Below, one piece after another: positions 2,236-19,600 of a DNA stretch of 22,485 nucleotides. The notes beneath the pieces were generated by a model. It did not search any database. It was not told the origin of the DNA and saw only the letters and a list, made by a program, of their open reading frames with translations. The position numbers and the translations under genes were made by a program. Origin of the DNA: Nitrospinota bacterium (GTDB lineage: Bacteria; Nitrospinota; Nitrospinia; JACRGO01); NCBI GenBank assembly GCA_016212295.1, contig JACRGO010000057.1, positions 1-22,485 of the forward strand, read 5' to 3'. The number at the start of each line of letters is the position of its first letter. Positions within the stretch are counted from its first letter, which is position 1.

Positions 2236-2443
2236 ATATTATTAAGTTCAGAAATTTGCGTTTTTCGCGCAAGTTTTTTGCCGCTTCTTGGAGCGCGGCA
2301 CGTCCGCAACCAAAATAAATTTCTCTTGAAGCATTCAACGCTGATTTTATTTCAAGCGGAAAACGTAAATTTCTGAACGTAATAATATCATCAAACGTTT
2401 GAATACATCGAAATTTATTTTTGCTGCGAACATGCCGCGCTAT
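2236..2443 (+). repeat. 208-bp interleaved palindromic repeat, copy A (full)
   Basis: It fills the gap between two genes. Four arms lie in the order a (2238-2260), b (2293-2322), a' (2364-2386), b' (2411-2440). Arm a pairs with a' (ATTATTAAGTTCAGAAATTT against its near-exact complement) and b pairs with b' (GCGCGGCACGTCCGCAACC and its imperfect complement), so the two palindromes interleave. A second full copy, about 90% identical by eye, occurs inverted at 13376-13582, with partial copies at 12351 and 13253. No coding capacity. Best explained as a MITE-like non-autonomous element. Confidence 0.85.
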
Positions 2444-2447
2444 GGCC

Positions 2448-3950
2448 TCACTTAGAAGAAAAGAGACCGGTCTTTATATGGACAAGGCCCAGCCTGGCAA
2501 GATCAGCCACATCGCGCGCGGAGCGAATGTTTTTCAATGCGTCTATCGCATGTTTGTATATCGGGTACTTGATCATTTTCAAATATCTTGAGTTTACGGT
2601 GAATATCTGTTCCCAGGTAAGGACGTCCCGGAAAAACGGCACATTACCCTTAAGGGTCCTTGAAACAATCCCGGATTCAAACTCCATTTCCCTGGACCAG
2701 GCAAAGTCCTTGGGCAGCAAATTGTGCTTGATCGCGTACTCCTCCACCTTGGTGCCCGGGTAAGTCCTCATGATATTCAGCACGGCGGTCTGCTTGTCCT
2801 CCAAATGCCGCGCAATCATCTCCAGCGTCAATTCCGCGTCCGCCATTGTCTCGGTCGGGTGGCTCACTATGTAGGAAAAGTTGTTGACCATGCCGGAGAG
2901 CTTGCCGAGTTTGGAAACCTCGCCGGCCTGTTCGATTTTCACCCTCTTTTTTATTACCTCGTCAATGATTCTTTGCGAGCCGGATTCCACGCCGAACATA
3001 ATGCCGGCGCATCCGGCCAATCTCATTTTGTCCATCAACCCGGCGTCCATTGTGTCAATCCGGGAGTGGGTTTGCCAGCGGATATCCAATCCATTGCCGG
3101 AAATCTGTTCGCATATTTCCATTGCGCGTTTTCGGACAATGGTCATGGTGTCATCAAAAAAAATAAACGCTGAAATGCCGAATTTTTTTTTCAGTTGGAC
3201 GATTTCCTCAATAATATTTCCGGCGGACCGCATTCTATACCGGTTTCCCCAGGCCTGCGCGGACGAGCAAAAATTGCAGTGGAAAGGGCAGCCGCGGCTT
3301 GTAAAAAGCATCCCCATTTTTTCATTGGTTTGATACCAGTCCAGGGAGCCGTAATATCTGTCCATTTTCAGCTTGTCCCATGCAGGGAAAGGAACAGAGT
3401 CCAGGTCCTGTATAAACGGACGGTCTGGGTTATGGTGAATTTGGCCGTTCCGCTTGTATGAAATGCCTGCCACCTGGCTGAAATCCCAATTTCCATGAAG
3501 GCCCTTCAACAACTCGTAAAAAGTGGCCTCGCCCTCTCCCCTGACGATAAAATCAATTCCGTTGAAACGCCGGATGGTGTCGTCGGACGCCAGCGTGGCA
3601 TGCGACCCTCCAGCGACTATTACTATATTCGGATCATGGTTCTTGATGATTTGGATCGCCTTTAAGGCGTCGAAACGGTTTTCCGTATAGAAATTAAGGC
3701 CGATGACATTAGGCCTCAAGTCAATCAGGACCTTTTTGAGGCCGTCAAAAACAAGCCCTTCAATGGTGGAATCCAAAATGGTAAAATCGATTGGTATATT
3801 TTCCTCCTCGGCCTTCTTTCTGGCATAGGAAACGAGATAAGCGAGGCCGATTGGGGGCAGATACTGGGTCCTCAGGAAAACCGATTGTTTTTCCCTTGGA
3901 GGGACCATCAACAGGACATTGAGTTTGCCGATCCTTGCGTTTGGAAGCAT
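2448..3950 (-). CDS. Cobalamin-binding-type radical SAM protein
   Basis: 500 residues. The first ~150 form a B12-binding-like Rossmann domain (LPPIGLAYLVSYA near 31; VAGGSHATL near 112; IVRGEGEATF near 135). A radical SAM barrel follows, with the cluster motif C221-x3-C225-x2-C228 in TSRGCPFHCNFC and an FFDDTMT strand. This is the class B architecture that includes methylases (such as HpnP) and ring or chain-modifying enzymes (such as BchE). The DxHxxG cobalamin motif is absent, which is common in this class. Substrate unknown; the neighbourhood (glycosyltransferases, aminotransferase, flippase-like protein) points to a lipid or glycan modification. The ATG at 3950 has no clear ribosome site, and the ATG at 3908 (residue 15) is an alternative just before the first beta strand. 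No cobalamin riboswitch is visible upstream. Confidence 0.9.
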   Translation of the reverse strand: MLPNARIGKLNVLLMVPPREKQSVFLRTQYLPPIGLAYLVSYARKKAEEENIPIDFTILDSTIEGLVFDGLKKVLIDLRPNVIGLNFYTENRFDALKAIQIIKNHDPNIVIVAGGSHATLASDDTIRRFNGIDFIVRGEGEATFYELLKGLHGNWDFSQVAGISYKRNGQIHHNPDRPFIQDLDSVPFPAWDKLKMDRYYGSLDWYQTNEKMGMLFTSRGCPFHCNFCSSAQAWGNRYRMRSAGNIIEEIVQLKKKFGISAFIFFDDTMTIVRKRAMEICEQISGNGLDIRWQTHSRIDTMDAGLMDKMRLAGCAGIMFGVESGSQRIIDEVIKKRVKIEQAGEVSKLGKLSGMVNNFSYIVSHPTETMADAELTLEMIARHLEDKQTAVLNIMRTYPGTKVEEYAIKHNLLPKDFAWSREMEFESGIVSRTLKGNVPFFRDVLTWEQIFTVNSRYLKMIKYPIYKHAIDALKNIRSARDVADLARLGLVHIKTGLFSSK

Positions 3951-4080
3951 ACCTGGCGTCTTTCAGGCTTAAAGGTTTGTTGCTTGGCGTATTTTCACCT
4001 AAAAATTCTTTTTCACACAAAGGCACTGGGGACACAAAGGGGGAAAAGACTAACAAAAGATATTTTAAATTTTGGTGAAT

Positions 4081-4175
4081 CGAATAACGGATATCGAACA
4101 GGGAACCGCGGAATTTTGAAGGTTTTCCTTCGACATTCGTTATTCCTTGTTTGATATTCCGCGGTTCTGCAAGCC
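4081..4175. repeat. Nested inverted repeat in intergenic DNA
   Basis: AACCGCGGAAT (4104-4114) and ATTCCGCGGTT (4156-4166) are a perfect 11-bp inverted pair. Between them GAAGG-TTTT-CCTTC forms a small hairpin (about 4118-4131), and GAATAACGGATATCGAA (from 4082) is the near-complement of TTCGACATTCGTTATTC (from 4129). It lies in the 677-bp gap between divergent genes. It resembles the short AT-rich dispersed repeats found across many environmental bacterial genomes; no gene is seen. Confidence 0.6.
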
Positions 4176-4386
4176 TGAATTATAAATTGTGAGAGACGCA
4201 TTCTTAGAATGAACGAGTAAGTATCTAAAAACTGTGTGTTCTTTGTGTCTTCGTGTGAGTATTTTCATTCTTCTTTGTGAGCCGAAGGCTCATGAGAGTT
4301 TCATGCTGAATATGTCGCTGGTCTTTAACTATAACATAACGGCGGGAAAAAGAGAAAAGGGCGGTTTTAAGGAAAATAGTCGGCCA

Positions 4387-4416
4387 TTAACAATTTCATG
4401 GGATTTGGCTTATAAT
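4387..4416 (+). promoter_or_regulatory. Sigma70-type promoter for the aminotransferase-glycosyltransferase block
   Basis: TTAACA (4387-4392) and a perfect TATAAT (4411-4416) are spaced by 18 bases. The predicted transcript would begin near 4423 and carry a leader of about 200 bases, containing the AT-rich repeat at 4438-4567, before the start at 4628. The rest of the gap from 3951 holds no gene that I can support. Confidence 0.5.
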
Positions 4417-4437
4417 GTACAAGGAAAACAAAATCCC

Positions 4438-4567
4438 AAATGACAAATAGCAAATTACAAATAAATTACAATTACCGAATGTCCAAAACAATTCCATTTC
4501 TTTGTTTGTCATTTGTAATTTTGGTTATTGAGGTTTATTTGTTATTTGACAATTGATATTTGGAGTT
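4438..4567 (+). repeat. AT-rich dispersed repeat, copy 1
   Basis: It begins AAATGACAAATAGCAAATTA and contains ATTACCGAATGTCCAAAACA, then a tail rich in TTTGTNATTTG words. The first ~75 bases recur almost exactly, inverted, at 16533-16612. The words CAAATTACAAATAAA and TTTATTTGTTATTTG near the two ends are roughly complementary, so the unit is itself loosely palindromic. Non-coding. Confidence 0.8.
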
Positions 4568-4627
4568 TCATAACACTTTGTTTTTTCGCAAAGTTTTATG
4601 GATTTGTAGTATTAGGAGATACAGGAC

Positions 4628-5824
4628 TTGAAAAATAACGATTCCGAAGGGCTGCCGGCGAAAAAGGATTTCCTGCTGTTCGGTTCGCCGTTAATTGAAA
4701 AAGAGGAAATAGCCGAGGTTGTCGCGGCGATGGAGTCCGGCTGGCTTGGGACCGGGCCGAGGGTCGCCAGGTTCGAGAAGGATTTCGCGCGTTACAAGGG
4801 AGTGGACCCGGCGCGAGTGGCGGCCCTGAATTCCTGCTCCGCCGCCTTGCATGTGAGCATGATAGCCGCCAGGCTGGAGCCCGGCGACGAGGTCATCACC
4901 ACTCCCATGACCTTTTCCGCCACCGTCAACTCCATCATACACGCGGGCGCCAAGCCGGTCCTGGCCGACATTGACCCGCGCGCGTTCAATATCGACCCCG
5001 CCGCCATCGAGTCATGCATTACCACTCGCACCAAGGGACTTCTGCCCGTGCACTTCGGGGGGCGGCCTTGCGAAATGGACGCGATAACCGCCATAGCCAA
5101 GCGGCGCGGCCTTACTTTAATCGAGGACTGCGCCCATGCCATTGAGTCGGAGTACAAGGGACGCAAGACCGGGACCTTCGGCGATTTCGGATGTTTTAGT
5201 TTTTACGTGACCAAGAACGTAGTCACCGGCGAGGGGGGAATGGTGGTGGCAAAACGGCAGGAAGACATTGAGCGCGTCAAGGTCCTGTCCCTGCATGGCA
5301 TGAGCAAGGACGCCTGGCATCGGTTCGGGGACAGCGGGTACAGGCATTATCAAGTGGTGGAGTGCGGCTTTAAATACAACATGATGGACCTTCAGGCCGC
5401 GATCGGCATCCACCAATTGGCGAGGATTGAAAAAAACTGGCTGCGCCGCCGCGAAATATGGGACCGCTATCAAGAGGCGTTTAAAAATTTGCCTGTGGAG
5501 CGTCCCCTGGACCCGGAGCCTGACACGCGCCACGCCTTTCATCTGTATACGATTTTAGTGAGTAAGAAAAAAAGCGGAATTGAACGGGACGCTTTTCTGG
5601 AAGCAATAACTGAAAAGGGCATAGGGGTGGGGGTCCACTATCTGAGCATTTGCGAACACCCGTACTATCAGACCGCCTTTGGATGGGAACCGGAGGACTA
5701 TCCATGCGCCATGAAGACGGGAAGGGAAACAGTGAGCCTGCCCCTTTCGGCCAAGCTGTCAGATTCCGACGTGGAAAGGGTGATAACCGCTGTCCATAAA
5801 ATTATAAACGCCCATGCCGGATAA
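4628..5824 (+). CDS. DegT/DnrJ/EryC1/StrS-family PLP aminotransferase (nucleotide-sugar type)
   Basis: 398 residues, the usual length. Fold-type I PLP enzyme that normally transaminates a keto-sugar nucleotide for surface polysaccharide or glycolipid synthesis in the cytosol. Visible marks: GTGPRVARFEKDFARY near 41, TPMTFSATVNSI near 92 (substrate/phosphate region), EDCAHAIES near 166 with Asp167 expected to hold the PLP ring nitrogen, and FSFYVTKNVVTGEGG with Lys196 as the Schiff-base lysine. The C-terminal VGVHY (near 337) and SLPLS are also typical. The start is TTG at 4628, chosen because AGGAG lies about 9 bases upstream and the frame gives a full-length family protein. It overlaps the downstream glycosyltransferase by 11 bases, so they are almost surely co-transcribed. 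Exact sugar unknown. Confidence 0.93.
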   Translation: MKNNDSEGLPAKKDFLLFGSPLIEKEEIAEVVAAMESGWLGTGPRVARFEKDFARYKGVDPARVAALNSCSAALHVSMIAARLEPGDEVITTPMTFSATVNSIIHAGAKPVLADIDPRAFNIDPAAIESCITTRTKGLLPVHFGGRPCEMDAITAIAKRRGLTLIEDCAHAIESEYKGRKTGTFGDFGCFSFYVTKNVVTGEGGMVVAKRQEDIERVKVLSLHGMSKDAWHRFGDSGYRHYQVVECGFKYNMMDLQAAIGIHQLARIEKNWLRRREIWDRYQEAFKNLPVERPLDPEPDTRHAFHLYTILVSKKKSGIERDAFLEAITEKGIGVGVHYLSICEHPYYQTAFGWEPEDYPCAMKTGRETVSLPLSAKLSDSDVERVITAVHKIINAHAG

Positions 5825-6968
5825 TGGTGGCGCGGCGCCTAAGAAAATTTGCGTTATCACAAGCTCTTTTCCCCTGAACCCTGAGGACGCCCGCGCTGCC
5901 GCTGGACTCTTCGTACTCGACTTTTCCCGCGCCTTAGCCGAATTGGGCCACAAGGTTACAGTAGTAACGCCGGACAAGATTCCAGGTCGAAAGGAAAATT
6001 TCCCTGGCCTTTCCGTCCACTGGTTCCCCTGGATGGGCGGAAGGAAGGTCCTTGCGGCCATGAAGCCTTATAACCCCATCGACGCCCTGGCGTTCCTTTC
6101 TTTATTCCGGAGAGGTGCCCGCTGTCTGGACGCGCTTGCGAAAGAGGAGGGCTTCGACCATGTAATGGCAATGTGGGCCGTGCCGGCCGGCTATCTTGCC
6201 ATGGGACTCAAAAAACGGCATGGGATTCCTTATACCACTTGGTGCCTCGGCTCGGACATCTGGACCTATGGCCGGTATCCAATCCTTAAAGGCATGGTCA
6301 AACGGGTAATAAACGAAAGCGGCCTTGTCTTCGCCGACGGCCTGAAGCTGGCGGAAGACGCATCGAAACTTTCTGGAAGGCCATGTCCCTTCATGGCCAG
6401 CAGCAGGCGTCTTGACTGTTCCCTGATACGCCCTCTGGATCTTCCCGCTGGATATCGCTTTCTTTTCATAGGGCGTTACGCGCGCGTAAAGGGCGTTGAC
6501 ATACTCCTTGACGCAATGGAAGAGTATGCCGGTCTCGGGAAAGATGGGCGGCTCTACATGTTCGGAGGCGGACCTTTAGCCGGCTTGGTGCAAGAGAGGG
6601 CCGCGGGGAAGGCCCTGCAAGGCCGCGTTATCGTTGGAGGATTCGCGGACGAGGAAACGGTGGTATCCTACCTGAACGCTTGCGACTGCCTGATTATTTC
6701 CTCCCGCATGGAAAGCATCCCGGTGATCCTCTCCGACGCCTTGCGGATGGGAAAGCCGGTTATCGCCACTGACGTAGGGGACATGGGCAGGATCATGAGA
6801 AAGGATGGCGCCGGAATAGTCGTCCCTGCCGAAGACCCAAGAGAACTTTGCAAGGCCATGCAAGAGATGGCAAACGGGAAAGACAAGGAGTGCGCTGCCG
6901 GGGTGAAAAAACTGGCGGCTGAGTTTGATATCAAGAGAATTGCATCGGAGTGGCTGGAGAAAATCTAA
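5814..6968 (+). CDS. GT4-like glycosyltransferase
   Basis: 384 residues of GT-B form. The N-terminal domain starts KKICVITSSFPLNPEDARAA with the GLFV..FSRALAELGHKVTVV helix expected of GT4 acceptor domains. The C-terminal donor domain starts near 214 with FLFIGRYARVKGVDILLDA and has MFGGGP, then SSRMESIPVILSDALRMGKP near 296-315. GT4 enzymes transfer a sugar from a nucleotide donor with retention. The canonical E-x7-E donor-binding pair reads E300-x7-D308, so the second acid is Asp. It starts inside the end of the aminotransferase gene and has no independent ribosome site, implying translational coupling. It probably adds the aminated sugar, or another sugar, to a lipid or growing glycan; substrate is inference. 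Confidence 0.9.
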   Translation: MPDNGGAAPKKICVITSSFPLNPEDARAAAGLFVLDFSRALAELGHKVTVVTPDKIPGRKENFPGLSVHWFPWMGGRKVLAAMKPYNPIDALAFLSLFRRGARCLDALAKEEGFDHVMAMWAVPAGYLAMGLKKRHGIPYTTWCLGSDIWTYGRYPILKGMVKRVINESGLVFADGLKLAEDASKLSGRPCPFMASSRRLDCSLIRPLDLPAGYRFLFIGRYARVKGVDILLDAMEEYAGLGKDGRLYMFGGGPLAGLVQERAAGKALQGRVIVGGFADEETVVSYLNACDCLIISSRMESIPVILSDALRMGKPVIATDVGDMGRIMRKDGAGIVVPAEDPRELCKAMQEMANGKDKECAAGVKKLAAEFDIKRIASEWLEKI

Positions 6969-7041
6969 TGAAAGCCGCGAAGAACGCCAAGCACCACTAT
7001 TAACAATCTCATAATAGTAGCGACATAGCCTCCAGAATCAG

Positions 7042-7067
7042 CGCTCCCAGGGAGGACCCTGGGAGCG
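7042..7067. terminator. GC-rich hairpin between glycosyltransferase and radical SAM genes
   Basis: CGCTCCCAGGG-AGGA-CCCTGGGAGCG is a perfect 11-bp stem with a 4-base loop, 73 bases after the glycosyltransferase stop. The T-run follows only after an AGAGGAAAAAATA spacer, so it is not a textbook intrinsic terminator. The same sequence type is a widespread dispersed hairpin repeat. It is followed at about 7091-7116 by a second repeat-like stretch (TCCGTGTAGATCCGTATAAT). The 6969-7157 gap holds no gene. Confidence 0.4.
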
Positions 7068-7157
7068 AGAGGAAAAAATATTTTTTAAAATCCGTGTAGA
7101 TCCGTATAATCCGCGTTCTATTTCATTTTCAGTTTATCCAAAATCAGGTGATTATTA

Positions 7158-8585
7158 ATGGCAAGGGTTTTATTGACAGCGCCGGGGAGCAGGACCTTTT
7201 ACGGGGAGCCCCGGTATCCCATGGGCGGCATTTCCATGATAGGGGCGGTGCTGCGAAAAGAAGGCCACGACGTTCAGTGCGTTGACATGCGCTTTTCCTC
7301 CGCTGACGATGATTTTTTCGATGAAAAAATAAAGGCGTTTCAACCGGATGCCGCGGGCTTTACAGTCACCAACTGGGACGTCCTGGAGGCGGTCCGCCTG
7401 GCGGGCAGGGCCAAGGTCCTGGACCCGAAGATCATCACGATATTCGGAGGACCGCAGGCGACCCTGTGTCCAATGGAAACCCTTGATTATCCCGAAGCCG
7501 ATATCGTGGTCCGGGGCGAGGGGGAGGTCACAATCCTTTCACTCATTAAAGCCATTGAAAAAAATCTGCCCCTTGAAGGGGTTCCAGGCGTCGGCTTCAG
7601 GGGCGATAAAGGCGCGCCTGTTCTGAACGCCCCGCCTGATCTTATAAAGGACCTCTCCTCCCTTCCCTGGCCGGCTTACGGCCTATTCGATCTGCCCAAA
7701 TATTTCGCCGCCGGGGACCGCAGAATGGGTATCATCGGTTCGCGTGGCTGTCCGTTCGGCTGCATCTTTTGCACTTCCCACAACGTCATGGGGAGGGCCA
7801 CCAGATATCGAATGCCGGACGATGTGCTCGCGGAAATGAAGCACTGGCACGAATCCCAAGGGGTGTCCCATTTTCAGTTCATGGAGGACAATTTCCTGGG
7901 CAACCGCAGGAAGGCCATGGCGTTTCTGGACGAACTTGAGCGGGCCTCCTTGCCCGTTACCTATTCCCTGGAAGTCGGCGTCCGGGCGGACGCCCTGAAA
8001 CCCGATATTTGCCGGAAGCTCAAGAAAACAGGATGCAGCATGGCGGCAATCGGCATAGAGAGCGCCGACCCGGAGGTGCTGCGCCTGGCGAACAAGGGTG
8101 AAGACATTGAGACAATCACCTCCGGCATACGGGCGCTAAAGGCGGCTGGCATCCCGGTGAAGGGATATTTCATCGTCGGACTCCCTGGCGACACGCGGGA
8201 CAAGGTCCAAAAGTCGGTCCGGTACGCAGTGGAGGAAAAGATAGATATGCCGCGCTTCGCGCTGGCGCAGGCGTTCCCGCATTCAAAACTGGCGGAGTGG
8301 GTGGCGGAAAACGGGCATTTTTATCACGACCCCTACGAGTATACCCTGCATCATACGGATGAGTTTCATGGCGAGGTCCATTTTGATTTCCCGGGGTTTC
8401 CCAGGGAGGAAATCTGGAAAGCCTATCTCTGGGCCCATGACCAGGCCGAGGCCCTGTCCTTCAAGCATGCGCTCATCAGGCGATTCGGCGAGGGACTAGG
8501 ACGCGCCGCGAACATATTCAACACCAGGCCGGCCAGAAAGGCGGCCATCTGGCTGTATCAACACAAGTTTATCTCCCTTCCGTGA
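7158..8585 (+). CDS. Second cobalamin-binding-type radical SAM protein
   Basis: 475 residues. The N-terminal B12-binding-like domain starts MARVLLTAPGSRTFYGEPRY and has IFGGPQATL near 95 and VVRGEGEVTIL near 117. The radical SAM barrel carries C198-x3-C202-x2-C205 in GSRGCPFGCIFC, then FMEDNFLG, ALKPDICRKLKKTGC and GIESADPEVLRLANKG, and KGYFIVGLPGDT. Same broad class as the protein at 2448-3950 but clearly divergent, so probably a different reaction. AGGTGA lies about 8 bases before the ATG. Its 3' end overlaps the opposite-strand glycosyltransferase by 17 bases. It would act in the cytosol on an unidentified lipid, glycan or isoprenoid substrate; an anaerobic or microaerobic lifestyle and a supply of cobalamin are implied by the family, not shown here. 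Confidence 0.9.
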   Translation: MARVLLTAPGSRTFYGEPRYPMGGISMIGAVLRKEGHDVQCVDMRFSSADDDFFDEKIKAFQPDAAGFTVTNWDVLEAVRLAGRAKVLDPKIITIFGGPQATLCPMETLDYPEADIVVRGEGEVTILSLIKAIEKNLPLEGVPGVGFRGDKGAPVLNAPPDLIKDLSSLPWPAYGLFDLPKYFAAGDRRMGIIGSRGCPFGCIFCTSHNVMGRATRYRMPDDVLAEMKHWHESQGVSHFQFMEDNFLGNRRKAMAFLDELERASLPVTYSLEVGVRADALKPDICRKLKKTGCSMAAIGIESADPEVLRLANKGEDIETITSGIRALKAAGIPVKGYFIVGLPGDTRDKVQKSVRYAVEEKIDMPRFALAQAFPHSKLAEWVAENGHFYHDPYEYTLHHTDEFHGEVHFDFPGFPREEIWKAYLWAHDQAEALSFKHALIRRFGEGLGRAANIFNTRPARKAAIWLYQHKFISLP

Positions 8586-9678
8586 CAATAATGTCCACTA
8601 TCTGTTTCGCTGAATTATTTATGTCCCAAAACCTTCTCGCATGGACAGAGGCAAGTTCAGCGTCCCTGGCCGTTTGTTCCCAGTTATTGGTCCGGTCGAG
8701 AATGGCCTCCAAGAGGGCCTCGCTGTCGCGCGCGGCGAACCTTTTGCCGCAATGGGGATTTGAGTCAAAAATCAAATCCATCATTGGCAGGTCAGAGGCG
8801 ATTAAGGGAATTCCGGCGGCCATGGCCTCCAGCACTGAGGTGGGGACAAAGCGGGCGTGGTTTTCCCGGAAGGGAAATAAATAAATGCAGTGGCCGTTAA
8901 AAGCCTTATTGATGTCCACGAGAGTGTCGATATTGACTTTCAGCGAGGGGGCCATTTTTTTTAACAGACCGGAAAGCTCCTCCCGTCTTTCCCCGCACTG
9001 GAAAATCGGGGCAGCTATGGTCAGGGTGAATCCATGGACTGCAAGCCGTTCCCCTATTTTCAATATGTCGATCAGTCCCCGGACGTAGAGGATGTTGTTG
9101 AACTGGCTGCGTTTGTTTTCGGACAGTCCGGCCATGAATAGAAGCTTTTTAGTGTTTTCCCTTTTACGGACCAGGGGCGTCCTTTCCAGGTTTATCCCTA
9201 TATTGACGACCGGGCCGTCCCAGCCCCTGCCGCCGCTTGCTGCCAGAAGGCCAACCTTTTTTGACAAGGCCGCCGGGTCACCCTTGGTGACGGCGTATAG
9301 TATTGTGAGACACGGCAAGCCGCCGGACCTTGCCATGCGGTCGACCACTCCCATGCTCCATTTATTGGCCGCGCCGCGAAGTCCATCAAAGGTCCCGAAG
9401 GGGAAATGAAGGACGGCGTCCGGCTTGTTTTGCGCCGACAATTTTTTCCTTAACGCCCAGTGCAAGGCCGGCAATTGAAAAAATCTGTTGTGGCAACTGA
9501 CGCATTCGGTCTTAACCGGCCACTCTCCCGGCAAGAATTTTTTCCCGTAATCAGCGCTCAGCGCCTCCACGTCCCAGTATTTTGAGAGCGGAGGGGCCAG
9601 ATCCAGGATAAAGTTTTTTCTGCCTTCGGACCATGGCGGGACAAAGCCCGGGGCGACGATTAATACTTTCTTCCTCAA
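8569..9678 (-). CDS. Glycosyltransferase, GT-B fold (GT4-like)
   Basis: 369 residues. The N-terminus KKVLIVAPGFVPPWSEGRKN has the glycine-rich loop and short S-E-G-R stretch of acceptor domains. The donor half shows KKLLFMAGLSENKR near 177, then YLFPFRENHARFVPTSVLEA and MAAGIPLIASDLP, equivalent to the GT4 E...E box with Glu272 and Glu284 (longer spacing than E-x7-E). The start is TTG at 9678, supported by GGAG 9 bases upstream and by overlapping the preceding stop as TTGA. That tight overlap means it is translated together with the methyltransferase at 9675-10409. Probably a sugar transferase in surface glycan or glycolipid synthesis; donor and acceptor unknown. Confidence 0.85.
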   Translation of the reverse strand: MRKKVLIVAPGFVPPWSEGRKNFILDLAPPLSKYWDVEALSADYGKKFLPGEWPVKTECVSCHNRFFQLPALHWALRKKLSAQNKPDAVLHFPFGTFDGLRGAANKWSMGVVDRMARSGGLPCLTILYAVTKGDPAALSKKVGLLAASGGRGWDGPVVNIGINLERTPLVRKRENTKKLLFMAGLSENKRSQFNNILYVRGLIDILKIGERLAVHGFTLTIAAPIFQCGERREELSGLLKKMAPSLKVNIDTLVDINKAFNGHCIYLFPFRENHARFVPTSVLEAMAAGIPLIASDLPMMDLIFDSNPHCGKRFAARDSEALLEAILDRTNNWEQTARDAELASVHARRFWDINNSAKQIVDIIVTEGR

Positions 9679-10409
9679 ACCTGTTTTTCTCCAATGACGA
9701 TTATTTGCTCGGCCAGCATTTTAAGAGGTCCTTTCCTGAAGAGGCCGGCCAGGGCCAGGGAAAACCGGCGCGGGAATATCCATGACAGGACCAGGAAATA
9801 ACTGCCGACGCCAATGGTCCCGGCCATGTTGATTTTGTTCCGCCTCATCCAGCCGGTGATTTCATTAATGTTGCTCATCGTGCTGCCTGTCGGTCTTTTT
9901 TTCAGCAAGGCCCGGTAAACGAAAATGGGCAAGGCCAATATCCGCCAATGATGGATATTGAAAAAATCAACGGCCATCGTCCCTCCAGGTTTCAGCACCC
10001 TCAGGATTTCCAGCAGAACCTTTTTTTGGCGCGAGTCATCCAACAGGTGCAGGAAGCGGGACGAGGTAACTGCGTCGAAGGTGTTGTCAGGGAAAGGAAT
10101 TTGAAAGGCGTCGCCTCTTATATAATGAACATTCCGCCGCGGCCCCAATCTCTTCCTTGCCATCTCCATCATCTCCGGGGTAAGGTCGCAGGCCACGACC
10201 AAGTCCCCAGCTTCCGATAATACCCCGATATTATGTCCGGTGCCGCAAGCCACGTCCAGGATAATGAGCGGCCTTTCCCTGCCGGCAAGGATTTCCCTTA
10301 GGATATCATGGTGGGCTTCCGCCGCTATGGAGCCGTACCAGGAGCCGTAGCGGAGTTCGTGATACCGGTCAGCCTCCTTTTGGTAAAACCGGGAGTGTTC
10401 TTTTTGCAT
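9675..10409 (-). CDS. Class I SAM-dependent methyltransferase
   Basis: 244 residues. Motif I is ILDVACGTGHNIGVL (50-64), with an acidic residue ending the second strand in VVACDLT (Asp75), then GDAFQIPFPDNTFDAVTSS (99-117) and LRVLKPGGTMAVDFFNIHHW. This is the UbiE/Methyltransf_11 pattern, a small-molecule, lipid or sugar O/C-methylase acting with S-adenosylmethionine in the cytosol. The C-terminal region (residues ~160-240) has a moderately hydrophobic stretch around VGSYFLVLSWIFP that may contact membrane or lipid. First gene of a two-gene leftward unit; its stop overlaps the next start by 3 bases. No strong ribosome site precedes the ATG. The substrate cannot be named, but the neighbours suggest a methylated sugar or lipid. 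Confidence 0.88.
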   Translation of the reverse strand: MQKEHSRFYQKEADRYHELRYGSWYGSIAAEAHHDILREILAGRERPLIILDVACGTGHNIGVLSEAGDLVVACDLTPEMMEMARKRLGPRRNVHYIRGDAFQIPFPDNTFDAVTSSRFLHLLDDSRQKKVLLEILRVLKPGGTMAVDFFNIHHWRILALPIFVYRALLKKRPTGSTMSNINEITGWMRRNKINMAGTIGVGSYFLVLSWIFPRRFSLALAGLFRKGPLKMLAEQIIVIGEKQV

Positions 10410-10440
10410 TTTTTACTGCTCACGTCGCAAAATAAATGGT

Positions 10441-10460
10441 CCTCGCCGCAAGCGGCGGGG
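10441..10460. repeat. GC-rich hairpin
   Basis: CCTCGCCGC-AA-GCGGCGGGG forms a 9-bp stem with one G-T pair and a two-base loop, just upstream of the methyltransferase start. It may be a dispersed hairpin repeat, or a weak terminator for leftward transcription arriving from the M23 gene (the sequence beyond it on that strand reads ACCATTTATTTT). Confidence 0.5.
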
Positions 10461-10482
10461 TATTTGTTGAATATTTATAACA

Positions 10483-10560
10483 ACATCCCCCTTTATCCCC
10501 CCTTGCCAGGGGGGAATTTTTGAAATATTCCCCCTTAAAAAAGGGGGCCAGGGGGATGTC
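10483..10560. repeat. C-rich/G-rich palindromic repeat
   Basis: Left arm ACATCCCCCTTTATCCCCCC and right arm AGGGGGCCAGGGGGATGTC are complementary over most of about 33 bases. Each arm also folds locally (CCCCCCTTGCCAGGGGGG; CCCCCTTAAAAAAGGGGG). Units of this kind are scattered in many bacterial genomes. It is non-coding; the frames that run through it give only P-F-F-K-G-E-like translations. Confidence 0.7.
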
Positions 10561-10568
10561 AATTCTTT

Positions 10569-10615
10569 CCTGCCTGTGCGTGTCCGCCACAGACAGGTGG
10601 TTGCGGCGAAGCCGC
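10569..10615. repeat. Two adjacent hairpins
   Basis: CCTGCCTGTG (10569-10578) pairs with CACAGACAGG (10588-10597) with one mismatch. Directly after it GCGGC-GAA-GCCGC (10603-10615) is a perfect small stem-loop. With the hairpins at 10441 and 10483 these make the 10410-10645 gap almost entirely hairpin-forming; no gene is supported in it. Confidence 0.55.
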
Positions 10616-10645
10616 GCCATGAACTCTATCGCCGACTTTTTTATC

Positions 10646-10858
10646 TCAAGCGAAGGCATCGACATTAATACCCTTGCCGCTCGTGGCGGCGTTGATTTGG
10701 CCTGTGGCCATGGCGGAGATTTGCCTCGTATCATCCATATTGGCCTGGTGGTTTCCTGGGGAGGCTATATTTCTGTTGAGAGGGCCAGGCCCGGACAATG
10801 CCTTTCTTATCAACTCGCGGGCCAGCGGCTTGGAATCGGATGTGATGGCTTTGGACAT
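10646..10858 (-). CDS. Possible small protein of 70 residues, unknown function
   Basis: Reverse frame with ATG at 10858, only 8 bases after the M23 stop, ending at 10646. Sequence begins MSKAITSDSKPLARELIRKA, is rich in Ala, Ser, Asn, Gln and Gly, and ends GKGINVDAFA. There is one amphipathic N-terminal helix and no membrane segment. Codon choice (GCC, TCC, AAG, GGC) matches the neighbouring real genes, which is the main support. No ribosome site of its own is evident, so coupling to the M23 gene would be needed. I do not recognise a family. A loose resemblance to FlgM-type disordered anti-sigma factors was considered, but no conserved motif supports it. It could be non-coding sequence. Confidence 0.35.
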   Translation of the reverse strand: MSKAITSDSKPLARELIRKALSGPGPLNRNIASPGNHQANMDDTRQISAMATGQINAATSGKGINVDAFA

Positions 10859-10866
10859 GGACGGGA

Positions 10867-12168
10867 TTACGAAATATTTTTCCTTGCCAGTGTGGCGAAG
10901 CTGTCCAGCACCTCTTTCCTGGCTCCAACAAAGTCGCCCCACTGGTTCTCAGGAACAGGCTTCGCCTTCGGCGTCTTGAATTCCAAGGGATTGATGGGCA
11001 CGCCGTTTTTTCTAAGATGGAAGCAAAGGTGCGGGCCGGTGGTCCTGCCCGTCATGCCCACTGTTCCTATGAACTGGCCCTGCTTGACGGCGGTCCCGGC
11101 CTTGATTCCTCCGGCGAACCCCGCAAGGTGGCAATACGCGGAGCTGTACACCCCGTTATGCTTGATCCTGATCAGCTTCCCTGATGGCCCGCTGTTGCCC
11201 GCGAAGTAAACCTCTCCGTCCGCCACGGCATATACCGGGGTCCCGACCGGGGCCGAATAATCCACGCTGAGATGCGGCACGTTTTTTTGGAGTATGGGAT
11301 GGAAACGCCGGGTGGAAAATCCGGAGCTGATCTGGGAATATTTCAAGGGCGCCTTCAGGAATTGCTTTTTAAGGGATTTCCCCTCGGGCGTGAAGTAGTC
11401 TCGATTCTGAGGGAAATAAATCGCGGTGATTTTTTCTCCGTTACGGATGATTTGGGCGCCTATGATCTGGCCGTACTTAACGAATTTGCCGTCCCGGTAT
11501 TTTTTCTCAATCGCGACTTGCAGGCTGTCGCCTTTTTTCAGGTCCTTGAAAAAATCTATGTCCCACGCGAATATCTCGGTGATCCCATGCGCCAGCGAGG
11601 GCTTTTCTCCCATCCTGATAATGGCATTGTATAAATTATCCTCTATGATGGCGCCCTTTATGACGGTTTTAACCTCGAATTTAACCGGCACGATTTTCGC
11701 GTGATACCGGCCCTTCTCCCTGGCAATGGAAACCACATGCTCCTTATCGGTTTCATAGGCCAATCCAACGATGGACCTCCCCTGGAGCTCCAGCTCATAA
11801 GGCGTGCCCTCCGGCAGCATGGAAATGTTATGGACCTTCTTGGCGGATTCAATTAATTCATGGAGTTCTGAATTGTCCAGGCCGTGTTTTTTCAAGGCTA
11901 TATAAAAGTTGCCTCCCTCCGGTATTTTTCCTTCAAGGGAGGTGGTTTTGCCGGTTTTCGTTTCTTCCGCTTCAGAAGGAGCCGGATCAAGGGCGCTGGC
12001 CTGGGCTTCCGGCTTCTTGTCCTCGAAAATAACTTTTAATAGTTTTTCCTCGGGTAAGGGATCTGGCATCCTGGCGGTCTCGGAGCAAAAGACCGTGGTG
12101 GAAATAATGGTGAAAAAAACGGCCGGAGCGGCGATTTTTAAAAATGGCTTTTTTAATGTAAAAGACAC
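10867..12168 (-). CDS. Exported M23 peptidoglycan endopeptidase (MepM/Csd3-like)
   Basis: 433 residues. A Sec-type signal or anchor helix spans about 8-28 (AAPAVFFTIISTTVFC), then a Pro/Glu/Lys-rich linker to about 85. A LysM/OapA-like and Csd3-type middle domain covers about 86-265 (FYIALKKHGLDNSELHELI; EIFAWDIDFFKDLKKGDSL). The C-terminal M23 domain follows (FSTRRFHPILQKNVPHLSVD; GTPVYAVADGEV; GPHLCFHLRKNG). The family cleaves peptide cross-links of murein in the periplasm during growth. Zinc ligands expected: His299, Asp303 and the second His of HxH. Here that motif is H380-L-C382, so Cys replaces the usual His ligand. His347 (AYCHL) is the other active-site histidine. The start is GTG at 12168 with AAGGA six bases upstream. 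It reads in the same direction as rsmA but is about 290 bp away, with a repeat between. Confidence 0.9.
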   Translation of the reverse strand: MSFTLKKPFLKIAAPAVFFTIISTTVFCSETARMPDPLPEEKLLKVIFEDKKPEAQASALDPAPSEAEETKTGKTTSLEGKIPEGGNFYIALKKHGLDNSELHELIESAKKVHNISMLPEGTPYELELQGRSIVGLAYETDKEHVVSIAREKGRYHAKIVPVKFEVKTVIKGAIIEDNLYNAIIRMGEKPSLAHGITEIFAWDIDFFKDLKKGDSLQVAIEKKYRDGKFVKYGQIIGAQIIRNGEKITAIYFPQNRDYFTPEGKSLKKQFLKAPLKYSQISSGFSTRRFHPILQKNVPHLSVDYSAPVGTPVYAVADGEVYFAGNSGPSGKLIRIKHNGVYSSAYCHLAGFAGGIKAGTAVKQGQFIGTVGMTGRTTGPHLCFHLRKNGVPINPLEFKTPKAKPVPENQWGDFVGARKEVLDSFATLARKNIS

Positions 12169-12350
12169 GGATATCCTTTTGGATGCTAGTTTTTTGACGT
12201 TTTGAGTCTATAAAAACCGGATAAATTTCGTTATTCATGATAAGCAACATGGATGCCAACTTAGGGGAATTTCACGAGGGGCTTGTAAGAGCAAGGCCGT
12301 GCTGTCTTCTGGAGAAATGGAAAAGCGTTGATATATTGACGAGAGCTATG
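12169..12350. other. Intergenic DNA without a recognised feature
   Basis: Between the start of the M23 gene and the truncated repeat at 12351. Open frames here are short, cross the repeat and have no ribosome site. The M23 promoter should lie here, but no convincing -35/-10 pair stands out. Confidence 0.5.
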
Positions 12351-12425
12351 TTATTGCGTTCAGAAATTTGCGTTTCCCGCGCAAGTTTTCCAACTGTTTC
12401 TTGGAGCGCGCATGGCCGCGCTATG
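12351..12425 (+). repeat. 208-bp repeat family, copy B (internally deleted, ~75 bp)
   Basis: It begins like copy A (GTTCAGAAATTTGCGTTT, then CGCGCAAG and CTTGGAGCGCG). It then jumps directly to the far end of the unit (CATGGCCGCGCTATG). About 130 internal bases are missing, with the junction in a GCGCG word shared by both sides. The remainder is a short palindrome-ended unit, the form expected of a deletion derivative of a MITE. Confidence 0.75.
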
Positions 12426-12461
12426 AATTTCTATTTTATCCTGCACCCTGACAACTGCCCC

Positions 12462-13250
12462 CTAAATCCCCTTCTTTAGAATATTGCTCAGTCTGGCGAA
12501 ACTTTCCATTGATACTGTTTCCGCCCGCTGGCCTGGGTCGATCCCACAGATACCGCATGCCTTGTCCACTTGCCCCGCGTCGAAGGGAAGCGCTTTCAGA
12601 TTGTTGATGATTTTTTTTCTGCGGTGGACGAAAGACGTCTTGACCAGTTCAAAGAAAAACCGTTCATCCTCCACGGCGAACGGGGGCGCAGGGGAGGGGG
12701 CGAACCTTACCACCGCCGAACTCACTTTAGTATTGGGTGAGAAATCCTTTTTGGACAGGACAAATTCCAGGGCGCACGCGGAATGGTACTGCGCGAATAT
12801 GCTCAAGGCATTATAACTTTTTCCTCCCGGCTTGGCGGTGATTCTTTCCGCTACCTCCAATTGAAACATGAGGACCATCAAGGGAATCTTGTCCTTGAAC
12901 TCAATCAACCTGGCCAGTATGGGCACGGCGCAGGAGTAGGGGAGGTTGGAGACCACCTTGAATGGTCCCTTCAACCTGCCGTAGTCGAATCCGGCGGCGT
13001 CTTCCACGAATATTTGAAAATCTGGATTGCCGGAATATGTCCTTTTTAATTTTTCCGCAAGCCTTGGGTCCAGTTCAATGGCGGTGAGGGGATTTCCCAT
13101 GTTTAGAATCCTTTCAGTCAGGATGCCCTTTCCTGGCCCGATTTCCACAACATGCTCCGAAGGCCCTATCCGGGCGAGTTCCACTATGCGTCTGGCTTTT
13201 TCATCCGAGGCCAAAAAATGCTGTCCAAGTCTTTTCCTATAAGTTTTCAT
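12462..13250 (-). CDS. rsmA: 16S rRNA (adenine1518/1519-N6) dimethyltransferase RsmA/KsgA
   Basis: 262 residues, the normal length. It dimethylates two adjacent adenines in the 3' terminal hairpin of 16S rRNA late in 30S assembly, using S-adenosylmethionine. Diagnostic motifs: YRKRLGQHFLAS (4-15), VVEIGPGKGILTERIL (34-49, SAM loop), acidic ELDPRLAEKL, catalytic NLPY at 102-105, and LMVLMFQLEVAERITAKPG. The C-terminal helical domain (FVHRRKKIINNLK; GQRAETVSMESFARLSN) is complete. The ATG at 13250 lies two bases from a partial repeat copy and has no Shine-Dalgarno sequence, so initiation may be weak or leaderless. Commonly named rsmA or ksgA. Confidence 0.96.
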   Translation of the reverse strand: MKTYRKRLGQHFLASDEKARRIVELARIGPSEHVVEIGPGKGILTERILNMGNPLTAIELDPRLAEKLKRTYSGNPDFQIFVEDAAGFDYGRLKGPFKVVSNLPYSCAVPILARLIEFKDKIPLMVLMFQLEVAERITAKPGGKSYNALSIFAQYHSACALEFVLSKKDFSPNTKVSSAVVRFAPSPAPPFAVEDERFFFELVKTSFVHRRKKIINNLKALPFDAGQVDKACGICGIDPGQRAETVSMESFARLSNILKKGI

Positions 13251-13252
13251 TT

Positions 13253-13317
13253 ATAGCGCGGCATGGCCGCAATCAAAATGAATTTCGATGTATTCAAACG
13301 TTCGATGATATTATTAC
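13253..13317 (-). repeat. 208-bp repeat family, copy C' (one end only, 65 bp)
   Basis: ATAGCGCGGCATGGCCGCAA through GTATTCAAACGTTCGATGAT matches the b'-end of copy A in reverse, out to the outer end of arm a'. It breaks off where the other arms should follow. Same orientation as full copy C 58 bp further right. It abuts the rsmA start codon. The 58-bp spacer (13318-13375) is unlike the rest of the repeat. Confidence 0.8.
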
Positions 13318-13375
13318 CTCATTTCTTTAAATAGTTCAGCCTTTGATGATAAGATATTCAGTGCTTAATTACCAC

Positions 13376-13582
13376 ATAGCGCGGCATGTCCGCAACTAAA
13401 ATAAATTTCGACGTATTCAAACGTTTGATGATATTATTACGTTCCGAAATTTGCGTTTCCGCTTGAAATAAAACCGGCGTTGAATGCTTCGAGAGAAATT
13501 TATTTTGGCTGCGGCCATCCGCGCTCCAGGAAGCGGTTGAAAAATTTGCGCGGACAACGCGAATTTCTGAGCGTAATAAAAT
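13376..13582 (-). repeat. 208-bp repeat family, copy C (full)
   Basis: The reverse complement aligns along its whole length with copy A at 2236-2443, with scattered substitutions and no large gaps. It keeps the same a-b-a'-b' arm order and the same boundaries. It lies between the divergent rsmA and the membrane protein at 13610, whose own ribosome site (GGAGG, about 13597) lies just outside it. Confidence 0.85.
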
Positions 13583-16319: not shown

Positions 16320-16506
16320 TAACACACCCCGGCCTTCGGCCACCCCTCTCAAGAGGGGAATTTATAGATGATGGCGTCCTGCCAAGAGGAGATTTAAAAA
16401 TAAGGAATCGCGGCAAGCCGCGGGAAATTATGCCTGCGCCGGCTGAAAATTTTTTCTCTGAATAATTCCCCTCTTGAGAGGGGTGGCCGAAGGCCGGGGT
16501 GTGTTA
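16320..16506. mobile_element. 187-bp MITE-like unit with perfect 43-bp inverted ends
   Basis: The left end 16320-16362 (TAACACACCCCGGCCTTCGG...) and right end 16464-16506 are perfect reverse complements over 43 bases. Each end also contains two small palindromes (GGCCTTCGGCC and CCCCTCTCAAGAGGGG). The ~100-bp centre is unrelated and has its own hairpin (GCGGCAAGCCGC). A third, diverged single end lies at 22283-22328. There is no coding capacity. It sits between the convergent transporter and uvrA genes, where the strong stems could also end transcription from both sides. Confidence 0.75.
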
Positions 16507-16532
16507 GAGGGCTTCTTCAATTACAAAGAATA

Positions 16533-16612
16533 AACAAGGAAATGGAATTGTTTTGGACATTCGGTAATTGTAATTTGTGATTTATTTGTAATTTGCTATT
16601 TGTAATTTGTAA
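16533..16612 (-). repeat. AT-rich dispersed repeat, copy 2
   Basis: The reverse complement contains AAATAGCAAATTACAAATAA and ATTACCGAATGTCCAAAACA and matches the first ~75 bases of the unit at 4438, with a small insertion (ATCACAA) and few other changes. It lies directly downstream of the uvrA stop codon. Confidence 0.8.
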
Positions 16613-16624
16613 TTTTGTTTTCAT

Positions 16625-19600
16625 TTAACCCCGTCCAATAAATTTCCTCAGAAACCTTGATGTGTGCGAGGCTTTCCCGGCGCGGACTATCTCCTCAGGC
16701 GTTCCCTGGGCGGTGATGCGGCCTCCGCCGTCTCCGCCCTCAGGCCCAAGGTCTATTACCCAGTCCGCCTCGGCCAGCACGTCCATGTTGTGCTCGATCA
16801 CCACCACCGTGTTTCCCGCGTCAACCAGCCTGTGCAGCGCATGAATCAACTTTTCCACGTCAGCCATGTGCAAGCCGATGGTGGGCTCGTCGAGCACGTA
16901 CAGGGAGTGGATACCTCCAAAATTTTTTCCTGGTCCCTTAAGACTATCCGTTGACGCCACGCGCGCGCGCAGGCCAGTTGTTGGGGCACGATGCATCGCG
17001 CCCTTACACGTTGTGGACGACGCGCGCGCCCTGGCCAGTTCAGTGACCAGCTTGATTCGCTGCGCCTCCCCTCCGCTCAAGGTCGGGCTCTGCTGGCCGA
17101 GGGTAAGATAGCCAAGCCCCACGTCTAGCAGGAGTTTAAGCGCATGGTGTATGGATGAATGAGCCTTGAAAAACTCCACTGCTTCGTCTATGTTCATCGC
17201 CAGGACCTCGGCTATGGTTTTTTCCTTGAACCTGACAGCCAGCGTCTCCTCGTTGAACCGCGCCCCGCGGCATCCCTCGCACGGCACGGTGACGTCCGGC
17301 AGGAAGCTCATGGCGATCTTTTTCAATCCCTGTCCCTCGCATTCCGGGCACCGCCCGCTGGCCGTGTTGAAGGAAAACCGCGCCGGGGAATACCCTCGAA
17401 TGGCGGCCTCGGTGGTTTGCGCGAAAAGCTTTCTTATCTCGCCCCAGAATCCAACGTAAGTTGCGGGACACGACCTGGGCGTCCTGCCGATAGGGGTCTG
17501 GTCCACTTCAAGGACGCGGTCCACCGCTTCCCACCCGGTGATATCCTCACACCCGGAAAACCTGCCTGCCTGGATATCCTGGCGGCCTTGCTTCTTTCCC
17601 ACAAGGTGGCCAAGGTTCTCGCGCAATACGTCGCGGACCAGCGTGCTCTTGCCGCTCCCGCTCACTCCCGACACGCAGACCAGTCCGCCAAGAGGTATGG
17701 ACAGGCTGATGTTTTTCAGATTGTGCATAGCGGCCTTTTTTATTGTGAGGCGGGGGGAATCCTTTGACGCGAAGACAGGACGCCTCTTCCTGCTCAGCGG
17801 ATGCCGCAGCGGTTCGCGAAGATATTGTCCTGTCACCGAGTCCTTGTTTTTTATCAAATCATCCACGCGGCCCTCGGCGATCAGACGCCCTCCCCGCGTT
17901 CCGCCGCCCGGGCCAAGGTCTATCACATGAGCGGCGTGGCGTATGGTCTCCTCGTCATGCTCAACCACTATTATGGTGTTGCCCTTTTTCTGGAGCATGC
18001 TTAAAGTGTCCAGCAGCATGAGATTGTCCCTGGCGTGGAGTCCGATGGTCGGCTCGTCCAGGATGTAGCATACGCCGCGCAGGTTCGAGCCTATCTGGGC
18101 CGCAAGCCTGATCCTCTGCGCCTCGCCCCCGCTCAGGCTGGGCGCGGAGCGGTCGAGTCCAAGATACGACAGCCCCACCTGCTTGAGGAATAGGAGGCGG
18201 GACAGGAGTTCGGAGATGATATCACGGGCGATGGGGGCCTCATGCGCCTCCCATTTCCACGATTGAAAAAGTTTTTTCGCCTCCGCCACTGAAGAGGCAG
18301 TGGCCTCGGCTATGGATTTTCCGCGCACCTTCACGGCCAGGGCCTCTGGACGCAGCCTCAGTCCGTTGCACTGGACGCATGCCCGCTCCGGCCCTTCCCA
18401 CCACTCGTTCCACCAGATTTCCTCCCCGGTCTGCTCCTCTTCAAAGCCGGAAAGCTCCAGCCCGGTCCCGTAGCAGCGGCGGCACCAGCCGTGCCTGGAG
18501 TTGAAGGAAAAGAGGCGCGGGTCCAATTCCTCGAAGCTTCGTCCGCAGCCCGGACACGCCCTGCTGGTGGAGAAGATTTTTTCCGTCCTGGCGGACTTCC
18601 CCCCAGGCCTTGGCGCAGCGTAAACGGTCCCCTTGCCGTATTCCAGGGCAAGGTCAAGCAGCCTTCTCAGTTCGCGCTCGTTTTCCGGTACGGCCATGGC
18701 CTCTCCAACCGGCAGGTCTATGCTATGCTCCTTATAGCGATCCAGCCTCGGCCAGGCTTCCGTTGGAATCAATTCTCCGTCCACCCTCAAGAATTCATAT
18801 CCCTTTTTCGCCGCCCATTTGGCAAGGTCCGTGTAATAACCCTTGCGTGAAACCACGAGAGGGGCAAGCAAGGCCACCTTCCTGCCCCGCCATTCGCGGA
18901 TGACATTCGCTATGATGGCCTCGGGACTTTGAGGCTTGATGGGAATTTCGCAATCCGGGCAATGCTGCGTCCCGAGCCTTGCGAACATAAGCCGCAGGAA
19001 GTGATATATCTCCGTTGCAGTTGCCACGGTGCTCTTGCGGCCCCCCCGGCTGGTGCGCTGCTCGATCGCCACTGTCGGGGGCAGGCCGGACACGCCGTCC
19101 ACGTCCGGCCTTGAAGCTGGCTGCGCGTACTGGCGGGCGTAGGCGTTCAACGACTCCAGATACCTCCTTTGCCCCTCCGCGAAGAGGATATCGAAGGCCA
19201 CGGTGCTCTTGCCGCTGCCGCTCACCCCGGTGATGACCGTGAAGGCGTCGCGTGGAATGGAGAGGTCCAGGTTCCGCAGATTATGCTCACGCGCGCGGCG
19301 GATGACGATGTTTTCGCCCGCGCTGTATGCGGCCTGGGTTTCAGCAACTCCGCCTGTATTCCCCGCCTGGCAAGTAGAGAGCAAGGCTGAAGATTTTTTT
19401 CCTTTTTCGCTCCGCGTTTTCTGGACTCTGCTTCCGTTTAAGTATTCACGCAATGCCTTTCCTGTATGGCTCCCGGCGAACTTGGCGACCTCCGCTGGCC
19501 CGCCCTCGCACACGATCTCCCCTCCAGCTTCACCTCCTTCAGGACCGAGGTCTATGATCCAGTCAGCCGCTGCAATTACGTCCAGATTGTGCTCGATCAC

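Follow-up and report, generated by a model that had tools for sequence, protein, structure and literature searches.

The stretch of Nitrospinota DNA analysed here (22,485 nucleotides, the window) holds two copies of an intergenic repeat in opposite orientation, and the question raised by the locus is whether such a unit is a mobile element, two nested elements or a conserved structured RNA, the three readings offered by a first-pass annotation. Both copies were found where the annotation had placed them, with ends one base longer (Table 1). The extra base is the closing G of ...GCGCTATG, included because 87% of the right ends have it; this figure is slightly inflated, since the pattern used in the search also had this G. 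The copies had also been described as occupying whole intergenic gaps. This was true of copy 1, which leaves 2 nt to the start codon of one gene (1310-2233) and 3 nt to the stop codon of another (2448-3950), but not of copy 2, which shares its gap with a b'-half copy.

Table 1. Copies of the repeat unit, its arms in copy 1, and related repeats in the window.
Feature	Position	Strand	Remarks
Full-length copy 1	2236..2444	+	Subfamily S1, 209 bp
Copy 1, arm a	2236..2268	+	Outer left end ATATTATTAAG...; inverted repeat with a'
Copy 1, arm b	2292..2323	+	Inverted repeat with b'
Copy 1, arm a'	2356..2388	+	Inverted repeat with a
Copy 1, arm b' and outer right end	2410..2444	+	Hairpin and GCGCTATG; inverted repeat (2410-2441) with b
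Repeat family C copy	4421..4568	-	Without the right-end hairpin that the full form has
Hairpin module	4569..4600	-	Occurs upstream of family C and also of family D; counterpart of the left end
Internal-deletion derivative	12348..12425	+	78 bp; both outer ends kept (ATGTTATTGCG...GCCGCGCTATG)
b'-half copy	13253..13317	-	Unit positions 144-208; ends immediately ahead of the start codon (13250) of a ksgA-like gene
Full-length copy 2	13375..13582	-	Opposite orientation to copy 1
Repeat family C partial copy	16519..16625	+	Without the shared right end

The unit is 209 bp long in the window, and its arms follow the interleaved order a-b-a'-b' that had been described, with a at unit positions 1-33, b at 57-88, a' at 121-153 and b' at 175-206. 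In copy 1, the complementarity was 91% for a/a' and 88% for b/b'. In copy 2, b' lies at 13378-13409, a' starts at 13431, b starts at 13495 and a extends to 13582. Two subfamilies are distinguished by the start of b (GGAGCGC vs CATAGCGC). The outer ends are sharp and fixed, the left being ATATTATTACG… (or ATATTATTACGTTCAG...) and the right …GCGCTATG, and the inner breakpoints are variable. No terminal inverted repeat at the outer ends was found in an alignment of 30 full copies, and one end does not match the other as an inverted repeat (ATATTATTACG vs CATAGCGCGGC).

Simpler units were also identified. A 57-bp A.A' palindrome without the internal b exists (L054), and b'-only units are common among the genome's pieces. 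The B hairpin has the form GCGGC-CAT-GCCGC with a constant foot, CAT[A/G]. In the full unit, the loop of the A-palindrome would hold an inverted B unit, and a second B unit would follow; the best reading of the 209 bp is that an AT-rich palindrome (A) and a REP-like hairpin unit (B) are combined into a mosaic, arranged as A-arm, inverted B, A'-arm and B. The suggestion of two nested elements stands to this extent, since A.A' and b'-only units occur on their own and the inverted B sits in the A loop beside a second B.

The repeat family extends well beyond the window. A BLAST search of the source genome (3.74 Mb in 237 contigs) gave at least 118 matches, from 40 scored of 325 candidates, and whole-genome pattern counts allowing up to 3 mismatches gave 165 a ends and 218 b ends, with none for the reversed-pattern controls. 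Full and partial copies together exceed 150 and are scattered between genes. The counts other than the motif totals come from the stretches that were fetched, a set biased towards copies with well-preserved ends; in these, 165 non-redundant pieces included 30 with both ends, 70 with the right end only and 47 with the left end only. Internal-deletion derivatives that keep both ends measured 39 bp (three copies), 61-65, 71 and 78 bp. Non-coding DNA held 60 of the 76 pieces sampled, the sampled sequence being 83% coding. In other copies, the similarity stopped at the ends given here.

Among 59 genomes of relatives, one weak end-motif match was found, in the sole genome of the same genus. The b' end, with at most 1 mismatch, was present 78 times in the source genome and 1-3 times in 4 of 76 other genomes of the phylum. 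Plasmids and viral contigs were also searched, with no match to the element. As the copies are numerous here and nearly absent from relatives, the element is, judged by its sequence distribution, a repeat family expanded in this lineage.

The left flank had a T at position -1 in 83% of cases, and the right end was ATG, followed by sequence without constraint. No target-site duplication of the variable kind, which had been proposed as a check, was seen in the flanks of the copies, and no true empty site was recovered; the matches obtained by flank BLAST for paralogous empty sites were other repeat families joined end to end. The terminal ATG opened a frame of at least 75 codons in 24 cases, about a quarter of the right ends, against a background of 18% for intergenic ATGs in general. 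A share so near the background fits a preference for ATG as such, not for genes. At least 80 codons were open from the right-end ATG (n = 99) in frame 0 in 22 cases, in frame 1 in 6 and in frame 2 in 12.

Clear genes whose first methionine is the ATG at the element end encode DnaJ, GuaA, UvrA, a SIS-CBS protein (kdsD-like) and an ArsR regulator, and in the DnaJ case the DnaJ domain begins at residue 3 from this methionine. The same-genus orthologues of uvrA and kdsD have Met at the same place, behind an unrelated leader without the element. In these cases the ATG is therefore host sequence, against which the element ends exactly, and the target probably includes ATG (CAT on the opposite strand). 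No significant Shine-Dalgarno remnant was seen to the left of the element (p = 0.23). If insertion flush to ATG is a real choice of target, the 5' leaders of core genes (uvrA, dnaJ, guaA and kdsD) would have been rewritten with the protein left intact, and such insertion would be a route for a mobile repeat to alter expression genome-wide.

The stem positions, whose covariation had been suggested as a check, co-varied within copies in both a/a' and b/b'. Resemblance within a copy exceeded that between copies (z = 5.8 for a/a' and 7.3 for b/b', permutation p ≤ 5e-5), with the limit that shared ancestry of the copies inflates the coupling counts and the z values are not exact probabilities. Pairs changed on both sides numbered 11 in b/b' and 6 in a/a', and neither number was reached in any of 500 shuffles. 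There were no both-side changes in the local hairpins inside the arms. In three pieces (L015, L026 and L027) the double changes formed runs, or blocks, with few or no mismatches remaining, and ancestry does not explain such block variants in single copies. Template switching from arm to arm accounts for the coupling better than selection on an RNA does, since the double changes come as the blocks that such switching yields. As the a-a' and b-b' foldbacks can each form, and not both in full together, template switching between paired arms during replication would make the arms alike. Homogenisation of inverted-repeat arms by template switching, via multi-nucleotide changes, is described in one study (PMC8604942). 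The present arms are like the quasi-palindromes treated in that literature (PMC8604942, PMC7202029) in that they become identical by multi-nucleotide changes, and are apparently unlike them in belonging to two interleaved palindromes of one dispersed family. The block-wise matching of two interlocked palindromes would be a record, left by nature, of template switching on foldback DNA.

The same covariation, as compensatory base changes in both helices, would be expected of a cis-acting structured RNA (leader or switch) whose a-a' and b-b' hairpins alternate, but template switching explains it likewise, and the changes occur block-wise in the long arms, not in local hairpins. Alternative folds are consistent with a switch, as a single sequence prefers b-b' (z = -4.7) and the alignment consensus prefers a-a'. 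The right end adjoins start codons in about a quarter of copies; however, this is not far above the intergenic-ATG background, and truncated copies adjoin start codons just like full ones. The orientation to flanking genes was random (same direction 8 and 8, divergent 8, convergent 4), which argues against a leader or trailer RNA. An Rfam search gave no match and the promoter or terminator signal was not above shuffles, and we regard an RNA of this kind as highly improbable. A classical MITE of a DDE transposase (e.g. IS630/Correia-like), in which the interleaved palindromes are internal and the ends conceal a duplication of 2 bp (AT or TA), would agree with the size, the A+T-rich flanks and the intergenic location. 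Both ends begin ATA, and a duplicated target dinucleotide could be represented by the AT at the left and the AT at the right. Such a MITE is unlikely, however, as the outer ends are not mutual inverted repeats, variation in the base at left -1 is independent of that in the right-end T, and the fetched sequence yielded no autonomous partner bearing these ends. The classical MITE definition was rejected on the lack of terminal inverted repeats at the outer ends. Bacterial MITEs such as Correia, NEMIS and RUP are 100-210 bp, non-coding, multi-copy, intergenic and palindromic. The element is alike in these respects, and differs from them in its lack of terminal inverted repeats at the outer ends and in that no target duplication was detected. 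Helitron and IS91 elements have 5' TC and 3' CTRR termini after a hairpin, and a Helitron/IS91-like element was rejected on its ends, ATATT... and ...GCTATG.

If B were the REP of a canonical REP/BIME family mobilised by a RAYT, this would account for the GCGGC-CAT-GCCGC hairpin with its constant foot, for the inverted pairs, high copy number and intergenic location, all of which were found, and for two RAYT-like genes in the genome. We judge it very unlikely, as the foot is CAT[A/G] and not the defining GT[AG]G and neither RAYT gene is flanked by B; the canonical GTAG REP/REPIN was rejected on these grounds, the 5' GT[AG]G foot being absent and the RAYT not flanked by the repeat. The element resembles REP/BIME/REPIN sequences with RAYT (TnpA-REP) in its high copy number, intergenic location and inverted pairs of short palindromes, as well as in its mosaic composition, lack of coding capacity and the RAYT-like genes in the genome (PMC3733652, PMC6006769, PMC3116915). 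It differs from them in its foot, its two interleaved palindromes, its asymmetric outer ends and RAYTs that are candidates at most. The strict definitions of REP, BIME and MITE did not apply where tested, and the element is a variant within that kind of repeat.

The 209-bp unit is thus most plausibly, and more probably than otherwise, a mobile repeat of the REP/BIME/MITE kind, non-autonomous and mosaic, and probably moved by a single-strand enzyme of HUH/Y1 type. The mobile-element reading of the first-pass annotation, a non-autonomous repeat with unusual ends, is largely right: the element is multi-copy, sharp-ended, mostly intergenic and nearly species-specific, with deletion derivatives that keep both ends. 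The RNA reading is unlikely. A trans-acting enzyme would move the element via its two end hairpins. An IS200/IS605-like element would have subterminal hairpins, no duplication and a fixed short target on one flank. From the hairpin ends, the fixed triplet ATG/CAT flush at one end and the absence of a visible duplication, the route would most likely be a single-strand one of HUH/Y1 type, as for REP and IS200/IS605 elements. Insertion would take place with the b' end flush to ATG (5'-CAT on the other strand), and the element would therefore often land exactly before a start codon. It is conceivable, although we propose it only tentatively, that these are site-specific single-strand modules that recognise the start-codon triplet (CAT antisense) and insert between the ribosome-binding site and ATG, with an end hairpin conserved across several phyla and a transposase as yet linked to no repeat. 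A lagging-strand bias, which a single-strand route would lead one to expect, was not established by GC skew, which is weak here; the count was 31 of 45 for right ends (p = 0.016), in one of four tests.

Two RAYT-like Y1 genes, C179 and C211, with HUH and tyrosine motifs, are present in the source genome. No B unit flanking either gene was found, and the C211 gene is surrounded by palindromes other than those of the element. An A end lies 12 nt past the stop codon of the C179 gene and could be there by chance. This gene has a C-terminal extension and an upstream GGGGTCAA, features by which it is like the TIRYT kind (PMC3733652, PMC6006769), and as a candidate it fits that kind. The terminal inverted repeats associated with the TIRYT class (subclass 2.1 Y1 proteins) carry GGGGWSAS; the ends of the present element are without this motif (PMC3733652, PMC6006769). 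At L092, a 329-aa Y1 transposase gene (1429-2418) is followed by an a-type end (2430-2453) 12 nt past the stop codon, and then by a long inverted repeat (AGCGGGGTATCCACTTA...TAAGTGGATACCCCGCT). A 180-aa RAYT gene at L093 (1080-2290) has palindromic repeats around GGATTTGCAATCC on both sides. The neighbours of RAYT genes in relatives included no ends of this element. A transposase gene flanked by the same pair of ends, another check that had been proposed, was not found in the fetched sequence. Ten pairs of ends lay 0.2-6 kb apart there, and none was recognised as a transposase element at the level of pairs.

The right-end hairpin is shared with other repeat families. Two of them, C of about 190 bp and D of about 232 bp, terminate in the same right-end hairpin and CATG (L087, L152); in family E as well as in C and D, the foot reads CATA or CATG. 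Copies of C are often fused directly to the ATG end of another unit. The 27-mer TTTTGGTTGCGGCNATGCCGCGCYATG of the right-end hairpin was found exactly in Kiritimatiellae, Lentisphaeria, Acidobacteria, Magnetococcales and Chloroflexi (L188-L202), that is, in no fewer than five lineages beyond this one, counted at phylum or class level; the sequence upstream of it is unrelated. No RAYT was found near these cross-phylum hairpins. An end hairpin common to several phyla is a handle for the search for the enzyme.

At 16320-16506 the window has an inverted repeat whose perfectly matching 43-bp arms are separated by 101 nt (AATTCCCCTCTTGAGAGGGGTGGCC...), and sequences akin to it adjoin copies of the element at four further loci (L035, L058, L110 and L148). 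The window also encodes a UvrA-like protein of 1869 aa (16625-22234), which resembles two UvrA proteins in one chain; an ordinary UvrA is also encoded in the source genome, on contig C173.
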